Shown here: positions 6,235-22,800 of the stretch, piece after piece
Position numbering within the stretch: the stretch's first letter is position 1
Layout: each line of letters begins with the position of its first letter
Origin: a virus
Strand: one strand, 5' to 3'
Virus record (IMG/VR): IMGVR_UViG_3300007734_000522
Coordinates: 1 to 25,950 of that record
DNA length: 25,950 nt
Notes under the pieces: generated by a model
Seen by the model: only the letters and a program-made list of their open reading frames with translations
Database searches by the model: none
Told to the model about the DNA's origin: nothing
Translations under genes and position numbers: made by a program

Positions 6235-6744
6235 TTATTTGTCTAAAGGTATTGGCTTTGTTTCATTAAGCTCTTCGGCTTCTAGATCTAGGTATTGCTT
6301 TTGAATTTCTGGACTATCCAACCAAGATACAGTGATATGCTTATTAATATTTTTATTTAATGTTAAATCTTTTTTATCTGAATATAAATCTGAAGTCTTA
6401 CCTGCTAACCAAGTAATGAATTTTGTTTTTTCTCTTATCCAACTAATAAGATTTGGATCTAAAGTATCTTGGTTTATATCGGCTTGGTATATATCGAGCA
6501 ATTTATCGACAATATTCTGGACCCCAATCTTACGAGCTTGTTCAATCTTTGCCTTGATTTCCTTGTTGTTTTCTTGATTCAAGTATTGATAAAACTTGTT
6601 CAAGCTGATCGGTAATGTTCCTTCCTTCTTTATACTTGCTAGTGTTTTTCCTTCGGATAGCTGCTCTAGTACTGTATTTAGAATTGTATCTTCCAAGACT
6701 ATCAACTCTTGGCTTTGCTTTTTGGTAGTAATATTGTCTGACAT
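6235..6744 (-). CDS. terS: Terminase small subunit
   Basis: A 169-residue protein with the order of P22/Sf6-type small terminases: an N-terminal helix-turn-helix region (VLEQLSEGKTLASIKKEG...SLNKFYQYL, residues about 28-57), an oligomerisation helix (EIKAKIEQARKIGVQNIVDKLLDI), the W-I-R-E-K-x-K core (103-109) and a C-terminal beta segment (HITVSWL). It recognises the packaging site and regulates the large subunit. AAGGAT precedes the ATG. Its first 203 bases overlap, in another frame, the end of the upstream 157-residue gene. It is separated from terL by oppositely oriented early genes. Confidence 0.85.
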   Translation of the reverse strand: MSDNITTKKQSQELIVLEDTILNTVLEQLSEGKTLASIKKEGTLPISLNKFYQYLNQENNKEIKAKIEQARKIGVQNIVDKLLDIYQADINQDTLDPNLISWIREKTKFITWLAGKTSDLYSDKKDLTLNKNINKHITVSWLDSPEIQKQYLDLEAEELNETKPIPLDK

Positions 6745-7015
6745 AATCTAAATCCTTATCTCTAAATTGTTTTAAACTTGCAAGTGATTTAATCTTTTTC
6801 TCATCTGAATAACCTGGCTTGTTAAACCCTCCTCTATTGGCTCTATCTCTAAAGCCATAGAAGTTTGTGTTCTGAGCTCCATGAAACCTACATTTATAAA
6901 TTTGAAATCCATTCTTGTTAAACTTATTTGTGGGAAATCCTTTAGCTTGACATGGCTTACCACTCAACCTTGATATATCCATACAGAATATTTTTTTACT
7001 TGGTCTTCCTGCCAT
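6542..7015 (-). CDS. HGG-type cysteine/histidine protein overlapping terS
   Basis: The 157-residue protein begins MAGRPSKKIFC and contains GKPCQAKGFPTN...KCRFHGAQN (about residues 19-49). This resembles the C-x-A-K...C-x-x-H-G-G motif of HGGxSTG-type phage proteins found beside terminase or replication genes; it is probably zinc-binding. The C-terminal 67 residues are very basic and fully overlap the start of terS in a different frame. Either this is genuine dual coding or translation of one product is limited. The start is supported by an AAGAAG site and by the previous stop 2 bases away. Function unknown. Confidence 0.68.
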   Translation of the reverse strand: MAGRPSKKIFCMDISRLSGKPCQAKGFPTNKFNKNGFQIYKCRFHGAQNTNFYGFRDRANRGGFNKPGYSDEKKIKSLASLKQFRDKDLDYVRQYYYQKAKPRVDSLGRYNSKYSTRAAIRRKNTSKYKEGRNITDQLEQVLSILESRKQQGNQGKD

Positions 7016-7016
7016 G

Positions 7017-7769
7017 CTACTTCTTTGGTTTGCCTTGCCAGTCTAGGTTATTCCTTTTGTTATATTCAACCTTTGCTTTGTATGCTGCTGATCTATTCTT
7101 TAATGTCTTTGATACCGCTGCTGTTATGGCTTGATCAACTACATGCTTTGGTAGTATCTTTTTTGCACGCAGCTCTTGCTCTTGGTGTTCAATGGCTTTT
7201 TGTACATAGTAAGGATGATATGAAATACATTCTTTTAATTCTCGCAAGGGTAGAGTAGCCAGTTTAATAATCTTATTTTCCTTATTCAAATTTTTATTAT
7301 TAACAATACTATCTATTGTATTTTTATACCTAGTTCTTATTAAACTAGTTTCTATTAAATTAGTTTTATTAATAGAGTCTAAGTTAGACTGTCTGATAGG
7401 TGAACTTAGACTGTCGCCAGTCTGATTTAACCTATCACTATTGCTTATGACAGGTGAAGTTAGACTATCACTAGATAACAACTCTGGGTTGATTTGATAT
7501 AGATTTGTTGAGGATAATCGCTTTTTATTAATCATTCTGTGCTTAAACATTAGGTTAATAATAACCTTTAATTTAGATTCAGAGTAGCCAACAATCTCCT
7601 TTAGCTTAGCATAGCGAGGATAACAAGTGCCACTTTTAGCATTCGTAAAGCGAATAAGTGCCGCAAGTACAGCCAAACAATCGCCTTTCCTACCCTCTGG
7701 CAAGCCTAAATAACTACGATGTGTGAATACAGACACAGGTATTCTAATATGTGCTTTATTTTTTGGCAT
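7017..7769 (-). CDS. Winged-helix replication initiator-like protein
   Basis: A 250-residue protein. Residues 1-95 resemble the N-terminal winged helix of phage replication proteins (lambda O/HTH_36 type): IRIPVSVF, then LAVLAALIRFTNAKSGTCYPRYAKL, then an SESKLKVIINLMFKHRMI recognition region. Residues about 100-150 are low-complexity and are encoded by iteron-like DNA repeats, as in lambda O, where the origin lies within the gene. The C-terminal third is helical and basic. It likely binds origin DNA and recruits a helicase; this is family-based inference. No Shine-Dalgarno sequence is visible, and it overlaps the upstream gene by 14 bases, so translation is probably coupled. Confidence 0.7.
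   Translation of the reverse strand: MPKNKAHIRIPVSVFTHRSYLGLPEGRKGDCLAVLAALIRFTNAKSGTCYPRYAKLKEIVGYSESKLKVIINLMFKHRMINKKRLSSTNLYQINPELLSSDSLTSPVISNSDRLNQTGDSLSSPIRQSNLDSINKTNLIETSLIRTRYKNTIDSIVNNKNLNKENKIIKLATLPLRELKECISYHPYYVQKAIEHQEQELRAKKILPKHVVDQAITAAVSKTLKNRSAAYKAKVEYNKRNNLDWQGKPKK
7320..7470. repeat. Iteron-like repeats plus AT-rich segment (candidate replication origin)
   Basis: Three copies of AA(G/C)TTAGACT(G/A)TC start at 7381, 7403 and 7457. Two are extended as AGGTGAA-(C/G)-TTAGACT-(G/A)-TC at 7398-7415 and 7452-7469 (16 of 18 identical). TGATAGGT (7394-7401) is inverted as ACCTATCA (7430-7437), and AGACTG/CAGTCT forms a hairpin at 7408-7423. Immediately to the left is an AT-rich stretch with a 15-base-period direct repeat TATTAAA(C/T)TAGTTT (7338, 7353). 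This is the layout of a lambda-type origin inside its initiator gene. Confidence 0.55.
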
Positions 7770-8151
7770 ATTTACAGTGTTTATTGTGTTCTATCTGCAG
7801 ATTAAGCAAAAGCTGATACCATTCCCCCTCAGGAATAGGGTTTAAATCAGTTTTAAATGGGTATTTTTGAGCATATACGAACTCTAGGCTATCCGAGCTA
7901 GGTATAGGTTTATAGTACAGCAAAAAACAGGGTATATTTAAGGATTTGGCTATGTGTTCTACGATAGTTGTATATTTCTTCTTATAAGTACCAACATCAA
8001 AGACAGTTTCTACTATTGCTAATGGTTGCCAACACCCTTTATGAATACAGCAAGGTACTGAATCAATATCTATATAAGCAATACCATCGCACTTGTTTCT
8101 ATGCCACTGCGAATAGTGATCTCCACCATTAAAATAATTATGTCGTGCCAT
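7756..8151 (-). CDS. Conserved phage protein with IDIDSV and AIVET motifs, nuclease-like
   Basis: A 131-residue protein. It starts with an aromatic and His-rich segment (GGDHYSQWHRNKCDGIAY), then IDIDSVPCC, a C-x3-C pair (CCIHKGC), LAIVETVFDVG, and the beta strand IPCFLLYYK. The acidic pair spaced ahead of a second acidic strand recalls small PD-(D/E)XK-type nuclease folds, but no clear E-x-K is present, so I do not assign an activity. Similar W-H-R...D-x-D-x-V-E proteins occur in phages and actinobacteria from memory. It starts within a TAATG overlap with the coiled-coil gene upstream. Confidence 0.72.
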   Translation of the reverse strand: MARHNYFNGGDHYSQWHRNKCDGIAYIDIDSVPCCIHKGCWQPLAIVETVFDVGTYKKKYTTIVEHIAKSLNIPCFLLYYKPIPSSDSLEFVYAQKYPFKTDLNPIPEGEWYQLLLNLQIEHNKHCKYAKK

Positions 8152-8313: not shown

Positions 8314-8523
8314 TTATTCTTTCATTTTATTAAAGACTAATCTCCAAAACCAAGATCTAATAATAGATACAAAAGTAAATATTAATGCGATCTTAATTCC
8401 TACTGAAATAGTAGGGTATAGATTAAACATTGGAAATATATAAAACTGAATTAATAATGCTATTACAAATCCAGTACCTATATCTATTATAGATTCAATT
8501 AAACTCCGCACATTCCCTCGCAT
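8314..8523 (-). CDS. Two-span membrane protein (DUF7220-like)
   Basis: A 69-residue protein with two hydrophobic segments (about 15-34 and 43-57) and the flanking motifs S-L-I-E-S near the start and F-V-S-I-I-R-S-W-F-W-R-L-V-F at the end. This matches from memory the DUF7220 phage family (MR...SLIE...P-x-F...FT-x-V-S-I-x-R-S). Function unknown. It overlaps the end of the PAPS-reductase-like gene by 25 bases, so it is translationally coupled and lacks its own strong ribosome site. Confidence 0.82.
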   Translation of the reverse strand: MRGNVRSLIESIIDIGTGFVIALLIQFYIFPMFNLYPTISVGIKIALIFTFVSIIRSWFWRLVFNKMKE

Positions 8524-9323
8524 TCATTATTAAATCCAAAGTCTTGTTGCTTATCATTTTTAATCTTTTTAAATTCTATCGTATCAAGTGGAGTACAAGA
8601 ACGATGTAAATAAAGTTCATCTTTTATTTTAGTATTACCTTGTCTTATAAACTTGTCATACTCAACTGCTTGTTTAAATTCATTTGGTTTTGTATCTTTC
8701 ATTTCTTGCCAGAAAGAATCACTGTGGTAGGGACAACATATACAAGCTGATTTCTCAGGTAATAAATAATTATTATCTTTCATCCATTTTAAACAATGAT
8801 CTCTTGTCATTTTTAAATCTATTAATGGGTAATGATTAACAAGATATTTTTTATTAGATAATTTCATTCTAACAACTTCATCTAAAGATATTCCAAACCA
8901 CTGTTCAACAAATACATCTTTAGGAAAGTGCATACCTTTTTTTAATCCTATTAATTCTCTGATCTTTCTAGCTACTGGTATAATTTTATAATCATTAGTG
9001 CATTGACGCATTAACATTCCTTTCTTTCCTGTCTGTCTATTCTTTGTAAAAAATGGAGCTGTTGGCATTCTTTTATCTGACTGAATCCATTCCTTAATAT
9101 CTTCTTTAATATTTCCATTATTAACTACATGAATTGGAAATGGTAATTGTTCTTTTAAATATTCTAAATACTTATAAACAAAGTCAGGTTCAAAACCTGT
9201 GTCTGCAAAGATAGCACAATCAACTTTTGGCAACACACCTTTAGCTGACATCAAAGCCATAGTAGATGATTGAACTCCAACACCTAAAGATATTACTGTT
9301 AATACTTTCTTTCTTTCAGTCAT
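8499..9323 (-). CDS. PAPS reductase-like / adenine nucleotide alpha hydrolase protein
   Basis: The protein (274 residues from the preferred start) carries a PP-loop variant SLGVGVQSSTMALMS (about residues 11-25), AIFADTGFEP, CTNDYKI, VEQWFGIS-DE, a WMKDNN region and the Cys cluster CICCPYHSDSFW. This order is typical of the phage branch of the phosphoadenosine phosphosulfate reductase family. Proposed roles include sulfur transfer, nucleotide or tRNA thiolation and DNA modification; none is shown here. A longer frame starts at 9356, but ATG 9323 has GGAG at 5 bases and overlaps the previous stop (TAATG), so 9323 is chosen. Confidence 0.88.
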   Translation of the reverse strand: MTERKKVLTVISLGVGVQSSTMALMSAKGVLPKVDCAIFADTGFEPDFVYKYLEYLKEQLPFPIHVVNNGNIKEDIKEWIQSDKRMPTAPFFTKNRQTGKKGMLMRQCTNDYKIIPVARKIRELIGLKKGMHFPKDVFVEQWFGISLDEVVRMKLSNKKYLVNHYPLIDLKMTRDHCLKWMKDNNYLLPEKSACICCPYHSDSFWQEMKDTKPNEFKQAVEYDKFIRQGNTKIKDELYLHRSCTPLDTIEFKKIKNDKQQDFGFNNECEGMCGV

Positions 9324-9586
9324 TAGTTCTCCAATTTCTTTAGTGATACGATGCAACCTTTAGGAATAACAATGGCATCGCCTACATCTAGTTCTTCTGT
9401 GTTTGGATCTATTGAAAATGTTGCAAACATTTTAATATAGTTTGCATTATCTTCATAAAGATAACCTATGGTATTACACATAGCAGGTTTAAGATTAATT
9501 AAATCATCCTCACTATTCCATGCGTTATCGCAGCTATTAATATCCTGCCAAACTACGATTACTTTTTCATATTTTATACTTTGCAT
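9323..9586 (-). CDS. Hypothetical 87-residue protein upstream of the PAPS-like gene
   Basis: The protein is mixed alpha/beta: KYEKVIVVWQDI, an acidic centre and a C-terminal strand DAIVIPKGCIVSL. No family is recognised. The frame opens at 9598, but the start at 9586 is preferred because GAGG (9593-9596) sits 7 bases before it. It overlaps the end of the HTH gene by 20 bases and ends at a TAATG junction with the PAPS-like gene, so the three are one translation unit. Confidence 0.72.
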   Translation of the reverse strand: MQSIKYEKVIVVWQDINSCDNAWNSEDDLINLKPAMCNTIGYLYEDNANYIKMFATFSIDPNTEELDVGDAIVIPKGCIVSLKKLEN

Positions 9587-13077: not shown

Positions 13078-13584
13078 ATGACACCAAAAGACTTTAGAAA
13101 AGAAATTAAATTAAGATATTCATTTAATAGTTTTGCAAACTTAGATGATAGAGAAAAGAAAATCTATCGTACAGGATTTAGAACTGGATATAAATTAGCA
13201 CGAGAATATTTTAAAAGTAATGTTAGACATAAGCAAACAGTTGTTAAGGAAGTAGTTAAGTATGTAACTATCAATGATGTGGTTGTACCTGAGAATGTTA
13301 AAAGTATTTTAGCAATCGTTGCCAATCAATTAGGAATTGATGTTAATGATATTATTGCTCAGACAAGAATACAATCTGCTGTGATTGCACGATCCATATT
13401 AATAAATGTTTTAAGAGATAAGTATGCTATGCCATTCACAAAGATTGGAGTGATCTTAGGTAATAGAGATCATACGACAATGATTCATCATACCAAAATG
13501 AAATTAAAAAAAGAACATTTCTGGAAACCAGAGAATGCTATCTGGAATAAATATAAATATGTGATGGATACTGTTAAGGCTTAG
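13078..13584 (+). CDS. DnaA domain IV-like DNA-binding protein
   Basis: A 168-residue protein whose second half is the DnaA C-terminal DNA-binding domain: VANQLGIDVNDIIAQTR, then AVIARSILINVLRD (about residues 100-113), and the DnaA signature as LGNRDHTTMIHH (about 124-135). The AAA+ ATPase and N-terminal domains of bacterial DnaA are absent; residues 1-70 are a basic, unrelated helical segment. It should bind TTATNCACA boxes. Two perfect boxes lie at 16261 and 16529. It may act in phage origin choice, as a transcription regulator, or to compete with host DnaA. It ends the rightward unit and overlaps the convergent gene by 4 bases. Confidence 0.87.
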   Translation: MTPKDFRKEIKLRYSFNSFANLDDREKKIYRTGFRTGYKLAREYFKSNVRHKQTVVKEVVKYVTINDVVVPENVKSILAIVANQLGIDVNDIIAQTRIQSAVIARSILINVLRDKYAMPFTKIGVILGNRDHTTMIHHTKMKLKKEHFWKPENAIWNKYKYVMDTVKA

Positions 13585-16243: not shown

Positions 16244-16269
16244 ACACCACCTATAGTGGTTGTGGATAA
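16241..16269 (-). promoter_or_regulatory. DnaA box abutting a CACTATAG element
   Basis: On the minus strand TTATCCACA (16269-16261), a perfect DnaA box, is followed by AC and then CACTATAGGTGGTGTATG (16258-16241), where the last three bases are the gene start. The 18-mer matches the element at 3687-3670 in 15 positions. ACCAC/GTGGT also forms a short inverted repeat around TATAG. The phage encodes its own DnaA domain IV protein, so protein binding here could control this gene. Confidence 0.6.
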
Positions 16270-19890: not shown

Positions 19891-22800
19891 TTATCCTGTT
19901 ATACTTCCTGATGAATTGAATACTATAACTTTATCAGAACCATCTGTTGTTACTGTTGGAGAACCAGTTGTAGTTCCTGAATAATTTGCAGTTGGTATAC
20001 GAAGTATTACAACTCCTGAACCTCCATTACCACCAGTTGCTGATGGAACACCATCACCTCCACCACCTCCTCCTCCTCCTGTATTTGCAGTAGCTTTTGT
20101 TGCAGCTGTTCCTGGTCCAATACCACCAGTACCACCACCACCAGTACCAGCAGGATTTGCTGATCCTGATCTTGAAGAACCTGAACCTCCACCACCTCTA
20201 TCAACAGCAGAACCTGTTATAGAAGATGATAAACCATCTCCACCATGTCCCTGACCATCAGTATTTCCAGCTTCACCTGCACCTCCACCACCTCCTCCAG
20301 TTCTAGGTGATGTTATTCCTGTCCCTCCACCAAAACCTTGATTGGCAGTTCCACTTCCACCAGTAGTGCTATTACCACCACCTCCTGAACCACCACTAAG
20401 ACCAGTAGTTCCAGATGGTCTTGAACCACCACCTCCTCCACCTGAAGATGTAATTGTTGTAATTCCTGTTCCTGAAATTGAACTATCAACTCCATTTGTT
20501 CCTGCCACAGTACCTGTTGCACTACCAGCACCACCTCCTCCTACTGTAACTGTATAAACTGTTCCAACAGAAAATGATAAAGTTGATTCACTACTTCCTC
20601 CACCACCTGAAGTTTCTGTGGAATATGAATTTCTATATCCTCCTGCTCCCCCTCCACCACCATCATCATATCCACCTCCTCCTCCACCAGCTACTACTAA
20701 AAAATCTATTGAATAAGGTGGTGGTGATAAAGAAACTGTTCCTTCATTTACACCAGATGATGCTAACCAACCTTGTGTAGCATCTATATATGTAATTGTT
20801 ACAGCTTCTCTTTCTGTATTTAAAACTCTATTATCTGTTGAACCATTAATTTTATTTCCATTAGGTGATAATGTAATTGCGTTAGTATCAAAAGTTCCTG
20901 CGTAATCTAATAATATAATTGTATCTCCAGCAGATGGAGAAGCAGGTAATGTTACTGTAAATGCAGCTGATGTAGTGTTGCAAGGATAACCATTCCCAGC
21001 AACAGCAGTAAAACCTGTTGTTTGAACTGATTGCCAAGATATTCCACCAGATCCAAAACTTAAATTTCCTGATCCATCTGTTTTTATAAATTGTCCAGAT
21101 GTTCCATCTGCAGTTGGTAATACCCAAATTTTATTTGCTGTTAAGTTTGATGCACCTTTAAATCCTACATAATTAGATCCATTAGCTGTTGCTTCTGCAA
21201 ATCTTATTTCAGCTTGGTTAGCATAAGTTTCAGAAGTATTAATAGTTGGTGATGTTAAAGTTTTATTAGTTAAAGTATCAGTAGTAGCTCTTCCAACTAA
21301 TGTATCTGTAGAAGTAGGTAATGTTAAAGTTCCAGTATTAGAAATACTAGAAATAATAGGAGAAGTTAAAGTCTTATTTGTTAATGTATCTGTAGTTGCT
21401 CTACCTACTAATGTATCTGTTGATGTAGGAAGTGTTAATGTTCCTGTATTAGATATTGAAGATATAATTGGTGTTGTTAATGTTTTATTAGTTAATGTTT
21501 GTGAATCTGTTGTTCCAACAACTGCACCAGATGGAGCTGATAATGTAGCAATAGATCCTAATCCTAAATTAGTTCTTGCAGAAGATGTAGAGTTTAGATC
21601 AGATAAATTATTTGCAACTAATAATGCACCAGATAATGAAGCATAAGCTGCAACCCAAGCAGATCCTGTATAAACTTTCATAGCATTATCTGTTGAATTG
21701 AAATATAATGCTCCACCAACTAAAGCATTACCATCATTATCTAATGTTGGATCAGATGTTTTAGTTCCTAAATATCTATCATCAAAATTATCATAAGCTG
21801 CTAATGCTGAATCTCTTGCACTGTTTGCTGCATTGGCTGCGTTACTAGCATTGTTAGCAAAGTTACTAGAATTATTTGCAAAGTTACTTGAGTTGCTAGC
21901 ATGATTACTAGAATTATTTGCAAAGTTGCTAGAATTAGATGCGTGGTTGCTAGATGTATTTGCAGAGTTTGAAGAGTTGTTTGCAAAGTTACTAGAATTA
22001 CTTGCGTGGTTAGATGAATTGCTTGCATGGTTAGCAGAAGTATTAGCACTATTAGAACTATTGTTTGCAAAGTTTGATGAATTAGAAGCATGGTTAGCTG
22101 AAGCATTTGCTGAATTAGAACTGTTATTAGCAAAGTTACTAGAGTTAGACGCATGATTAGAACTATTAGACGCATGGTTAGATGCGTTGTTAGCAAAGTT
22201 AGAACTGTTAGCAGAATGATTAGCTGCTGAATTTGCTGAGTTGCTAGAATTATTAGCAAAGTTAGAAGCGTTAGATGCAGAGTTTGCTGCAGCGTTGGCA
22301 TTAGCTTGTACTGAACTTAAATAAGTTGAAGCAGTATTAGCAGAGTTAGAAGCATTGTTTGCAAAATTAGAAGAGTTAGACGCATGATTGGCTGCAGTGT
22401 TTGCACTATTAGATGAATTGTTTGCGTAGTTAGAAGAGTTAGAAGCATGATTTGCTGCTGCATTAGCATTGGCAGATGCTGAAGCATTATCAACTATTAA
22501 ATTCCATTTAGCAGAATCAGCATTAGAACTGATTGGTGTTGTACCTGTGGATGTATGATTAGTATTACAAATATAAATATTACCATTAGAAGTATCTTTA
22601 ACTAAATCACGAGCATAGTAAGTTGTAGCAGTTGTCCAGTTGCCAGCATAAGTACCTAATTCTTGTGTAACTGATATTTCTCCAGAACTATCAAATGCTA
22701 GAATTTTATTAGCACGAGAAGATGCACCTACAGTAAACTCAGTAGATGTCATTGTATTTGTTTTAGATAATTTAATAGATCTTGTTACTTCTTCTTGTAA

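Follow-up and report, generated by a model that had tools for sequence, protein, structure and literature searches.

Where on its genome does a phage of the HTVC010P type begin to replicate, and which protein starts the process? Phages of this type form one of the most abundant groups of pelagiphages (PMC12753301), and the window, by which we mean the whole stretch of DNA that was analysed, is an HTVC010P-type contig of 25,950 bases. Our analysis indicates that the region 7289-7469 is very probably an origin of the lambda/SPP1 type, with a predicted array of iterons and a DNA unwinding element (DUE) lying inside the phage's own initiator gene (Table 1). We base this prediction on the observed repeats and their spacing, an AT-rich tract, selection on the DNA, the layout in relatives, and the matches of the encoded protein to initiator profiles.

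Relatives of the gene in question, 7017-7769 on the minus strand, are present in 18 Pelagibacter phage records, that of HTVC010P among them, with 25-28% identity, and at 42 IMG/VR loci with up to 61% identity over the full length. The neighbours of 7017-7769 are ordered as in HTVC010P, Skadi and others, with exonuclease and annealing-protein genes on one side and a small-terminase-like gene (6235-6744) two genes downstream. Of those window proteins that were scanned, none was recognisable as a phage helicase, primase or DNA polymerase, and the genes at 6542-7015 and 7756-8151, considered as candidates for a P-type loader, match no loader family, which leaves room for a highly diverged one. Upstream of the initiator gene on the same strand (8499-9356) lies a PAPS-reductase-like gene (PHROG 424, E 2.4e-47), and HTVC034P carries such a gene at the same place.

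The contig contains exactly three copies of AASTTAGACTRTC, at 7381, 7403 and 7457, just as the sequence-only reading had them when it placed three iterons in this gene; the copy at 7381 is in a different reading frame from the other two. That reading had also seen extended repeats and an inverted repeat, and both are present, but it understated their extent: the former are not 18 bases long but form a 27-nt pair (7394-7420 and 7448-7474, 81% identity), and the latter is not of 8 bp but a 20-nt pair (7394-7413 and 7418-7437, 85%). The inverted pair is better described as a fourth, reversed iteron standing between the others, since the core 21-mer GAYAGTCTAASTTNACCTRTC, perfect on the minus strand in iterons 1 and 3, recurs between them in the opposite orientation with three mismatches. 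No site of the GAYAGTCTAASTTNACCTRTC type appeared in 100 shuffles of the window. In coordinates of the coding sequence (CDS), GAYAGTCTAASTTNACCTRTC starts at 300 and 354, the reversed copy at 333 and a half-degenerate copy at 376, giving four units of ~21 bp in steps of 33, 21 and 22 bp, or approximately three, two and two helical turns, after which the AT-rich tract begins. Each unit is moreover an imperfect palindrome, with 10 to 16 of its 21 positions agreeing with its reverse complement, where the mean for the gene is 5.6.

Table 1. Features of the predicted origin and its gene, in positions of the window.
Feature	Position	Strand	Basis
Predicted initiator gene, 250-aa winged-helix protein (O-like / DnaD-like)	7017..7769	-	PHROG and Pfam matches
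Winged-helix DNA-binding domain, residues ~25-100, recognition helix around SESKLKVIINLM	7470..7697	-	Pfam/PHROG match and alignment
Iteron 1	7449..7469	-	GATAGTCTAACTTCACCTGTC; perfect match to the core 21-mer
Iteron 2, reversed	7416..7436	+	GCCAGTCTGATTTAACCTATC, 3 mismatches; inverted-pair p 0.002 against synonymous shuffles
Iteron 3	7395..7415	-	GACAGTCTAAGTTCACCTATC; perfect match to the core 21-mer
Iteron 4	7373..7393	-	GACAGTCTAACTTAGACTCTA, left half conserved; lies 22 bp from iteron 3, in another reading frame
AT-rich putative DNA unwinding element	7289..7372		14% GC; stability below that of synonymous shuffles
15-nt AT-rich tandem repeats, 2.9 copies	7330..7372		Repeat search; within the AT-rich tract

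Motif searches found no second iteron cluster, either in the window or in HTVC010P. Repeat clusters do occur elsewhere in the window, at 20.0-22.5 kb (tail fibre) and at 16.8-17.0 kb (45-nt), and we set them aside as low-complexity coding sequence that is not iteron-like. The tail-fibre-like gene at 21801-22467 contains many tandem 21-nt units, each of seven residues, rich in Asn, Ser and Ala.

Because the protein alone may force repeats inside a gene, we shuffled synonymous codons among identical residues, a null model that keeps both the protein and the codon usage fixed. Against 600 such shuffles the window gene has an in-frame repeat pair with p 0.005 and an out-of-frame pair at +22 with p 0.007; for all repeat types combined p is 0.0017, which is the floor of the test at 600 shuffles. 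The lambda O gene, taken as a positive control (the deposited record J02459.1 was used for all comparisons with lambda), reaches the same combined p of 0.0017, with its iteron pair at +20. A combined p below 0.05 was obtained for 26 of 30 genes of the group in the first set, the other four failing the test, compared with 3 of 12 control genes from the window; none of these 12 has its best out-of-frame repeat at +22.

What, then, is conserved among the relatives? The letters of the iterons are not common to all of them, while the address in the gene and the spacing are. The iterons start at CDS positions 303/324/346 in four relatives (L001, L003, L004, L005), at 306/327/349 in HTVC034P, at 310/342/364 in two others (L035, L037), and at 327/349 or 318/340 in most HTVC010P-like phages. 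Steps overall are of 21, 22 or 32 bp and the final one is of 22 bp in most relatives; since a step of 22 bp shifts the reading frame, the repetition is in the DNA and not in the peptide. The letters are specific to clades and include GAYAGTC, GTATC, GTGTACC, AGATAGCC, ATGTATAAAAAAGATCA and GGGTATTAAAGAACA, among others. The 34.9 kb of HTVC010P itself have just two occurrences of AAGATAGCC, which lie 22 bp apart inside the initiator gene.

The +22 spacing was fixed as a prediction before it was tested on 68 held-out genes, namely relatives fetched later, from which we removed any that had half of their 12-mers in common with the first set or with another of the new genes. The strongest out-of-frame repeat lies at exactly +22 in 55 of the 68, where synonymous shuffles lead one to expect ~8.5; of the remaining 13, five have it at 23, 32, 43 or 44. 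These genes are interrelated and so do not amount to 68 independent events, yet the motif differs between clades. Conservation of the layout in the face of protein drift was a check that the sequence-only reading had itself named, and the result bears it out, with peptide and iteron letters varying while the address and the 21/22/32-bp steps stay. Homologues that keep the peptide and lose the DNA repeats, which that reading took as grounds for giving up an origin, are the opposite of what we see.

A comparison of synonymous sites points the same way. Over 11 disjoint pairs of relatives, synonymous differences as a percentage of identical residues come to 20.3 for the winged-helix domain and 23.7 for the C-terminal part, against 9.2 for the iterons and 7.9 for the AT-rich part. 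A permutation test with strata for pair and codon degeneracy finds the reduction significant both for the iteron part (p 0.0006) and for the AT-rich part (p 0.0002). The DNA of the iterons and of the AT-rich tract is under selection beyond protein coding.

The AT-rich tract lies directly 3' of the iterons in the coding sense, on the same side as in lambda, and the 15-base repeats ascribed to it beforehand are indeed there. The stability of 7289-7372 is among the lowest 1-2% of the contig and its instability exceeds that of synonymous shuffles (gene-wide p 0.005, with the peak at CDS 407-482). Excess instability just 3' of the iterons is found in most of the window-clade relatives tested. However, members of the HTVC010P clade mostly fall short of significance and one control gene, terS, shows excess instability too (p 0.0025); we therefore dropped instability as sufficient evidence for an origin in its own right and treat it as supporting evidence only. 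The small terminase gene (6235-6744, minus strand) has an excess AT-rich segment at 6340-6415 and a short in-frame repeat (6468-6496) that exceeds synonymous shuffles, features that might mark a packaging site.

Which protein would act at such a site? For the product of gene 7017-7769 the profile matches are PHROG 391, 'replication initiation O-like', with E 3e-5 and Pfam HTH_36 with E 3.3e-4, and among 27 relatives PHROG 270, 'replication initiation protein', is matched by 21 (best 2.4e-9) and PHROG 186, 'DnaD-like helicase loader', by 17 (best 3.6e-11, in L010 over residues 4-219). No transcription-factor family is the best match: the PHROG matches are to replication initiation families and the Pfam match is to the generic HTH_36. 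In many isolates the gene goes under the name 'putative transcriptional regulator'; since dozens of relatives have the layout at one and the same place in it, it is most likely the replication initiator of the HTVC010P-type group, and the earlier proposal of a winged-helix initiator gene gains support from the profile matches. The description of the locus as lambda-like holds for the arrangement; direct sequence homology to lambda O went undetected (hhalign profile comparison, probability 0.2), and what the two share is profiles, PHROGs 391 and 678 being matched by lambda O and by members of the group. A search of solved-structure profiles returned winged-helix matches at chance level only.

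The recognition helix and the iteron letters go together across the group. Helices of the form SESK.K.II accompany GAYAGTC, SR[ML]T[IL]YRCI accompanies GTATC, SKKTLTNY accompanies GTGTACC, CRTTIK accompanies AGATAGCC, and LSR.TVRR accompanies GTATAAAAAAGATCA or GGTATTAAAGAACA. This pairing fits a protein that reads the iterons of its own gene, but common descent would give the same pattern. The initiator genes are also mosaic: the C-terminal 70 residues are exchanged between clades while the winged helix and the iterons travel together, so that L021 and L014 are 38% identical in the N-terminal part and 100% in the C-terminal part, and L004 and L008 are 100% and 73% identical, respectively.

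Could the repeats have arisen without an origin, as a by-product of a repetitive low-complexity linker in the protein? Two relatives (L009 and L012) do carry in-frame 21-nt units over which the peptide repeats too. However, in most homologues the best out-of-frame repeat is the one at +22 and the peptide does not repeat along with it, shuffles that preserve the peptide fail to give the repeats, and synonymous change is halved over the iterons, so that we consider a linker origin extremely improbable. There is, to our mind, only the slightest chance that the array is instead a packaging (pac) or recombination site, as the nearness of the small-terminase-like gene, only ~0.6 kb off, might lead one to think; the sites sit in the initiator gene and not in the terminase gene, the class of the iterons tracks the recognition helix of the initiator, and the direct terminal repeat of Skadi has been placed around TerL (PMC10504331).

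The sites might also be operators, through which the protein, as a transcriptional regulator, would control its operon from within its own gene. Many isolates carry just such an annotation, and a winged helix suits a regulator or an initiator alike. But the sites are in mid-gene, 300-400 bp from the start codon and not at a promoter, they adjoin an AT-rich tract whose synonymous sites are constrained, and by profile the protein matches replication initiators best; we regard operator sites as improbable. DnaA boxes were considered as a rival origin and rejected, matches to TTATNCACA with at most one mismatch numbering 39 in comparison with 52 expected and hence not being enriched. Cumulative GC skew over the window tracks the strand of the genes, with no turn at the initiator gene. 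Two TTATCCACA sites are found at 16261 and 16529.

How would replication proceed from the predicted iteron origin? The N-terminal winged helix of the 7017-7769 protein would bind the ~21-bp, partly palindromic iterons of its own gene, with initiator dimers probably stacked along the same face of the DNA at intervals of 21-22 bp, or two turns. The bound initiator may then open the AT-rich tract 3' of the iterons and would go on to recruit the host replisome, helicase included. Later on, much as lambda and SPP1 do, the phage would turn from theta replication to concatemer synthesis with its exonuclease and annealing protein.

Since some relatives match the DnaD-like helicase-loader profile over nearly their whole length, one can go further and imagine a single protein that combines the tasks of lambda O and P, its winged helix binding the iterons and its strongly conserved C-terminus loading host DnaB, with a phage protein bearing DnaA domain IV competing with host DnaA at oriC. 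We think this combination unlikely, if conceivable; were it true, it would be a minimal takeover of the host replisome in which the address of the iterons stays fixed while their specificity diversifies. A 168-aa protein with DnaA domain IV (Bac_DnaA_C, E 3.9e-14) and without the AAA+ part is encoded at 13078-13584 on the plus strand, and the named relatives have one too, annotated 'DNA replication initiation (DnaA)'. Two roles are conceivable for it, competition with the host's DnaA at oriC or a part in initiation at the phage's own origin.

Iteron origins with an AT-rich region inside the initiator gene are established for lambda and related phages (PMC7466680), and oriL of SPP1, which lies in gene 38 for the replisome organizer gp38, is of the same type (PMC6316719). 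In lambda O, as in the window, partly palindromic iterons of ~18-21 bp lie in mid-gene past the DNA-binding domain, partly out of frame with one another (starts 348/368/392/415), with the AT-rich side 3'. The differences are that the steps in lambda are 20/24/23 bp rather than the 21/22 of the pelagiphage group, that the iteron letters are unlike, that the window has one inverted iteron, and that no P-type loader gene was recognised beside its initiator. SPP1 resembles the window in being lytic, in its direct repeats and AT-rich DUE within the initiator gene, in its use of the host polymerase, and in having an exonuclease and an annealing protein for the concatemer switch; unlike the window, where no helicase gene was recognised, it has its own helicase and loader, as well as a second origin, oriR. 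In iteron plasmids, too, the iterons are helically phased and adjoin a DUE that contains short AT-rich repeats. These plasmid iterons usually lie outside the rep gene, often together with DnaA boxes, whereas DnaA boxes are not enriched in the window.

The locus had been expected to be an unusual replicon, but the layout turns out to be the rule in HTVC010P-type phages. In the paper on Skadi such genes are taken for transcriptional regulators; the paper also mentions a lambda-like helicase loader and suggests that replication is rolling-circle-like (PMC10504331). Our literature search, which covered few subscription journals, returned no report of an origin for the HTVC010P-type group and none that joins pelagiphages with iterons. 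An embedded origin with its initiator thus appears not to have been described before in this group.

The predicted origin and initiator make the mode of replication testable in a cultured isolate, and reading the gene as an initiator would correct the annotation of many records. Peak-to-trough coverage around the initiator gene could serve as a marker of phage replication in metagenomes. More generally, the different classes of iterons found at one fixed address would offer a natural data set on how an initiator and its sites change together.
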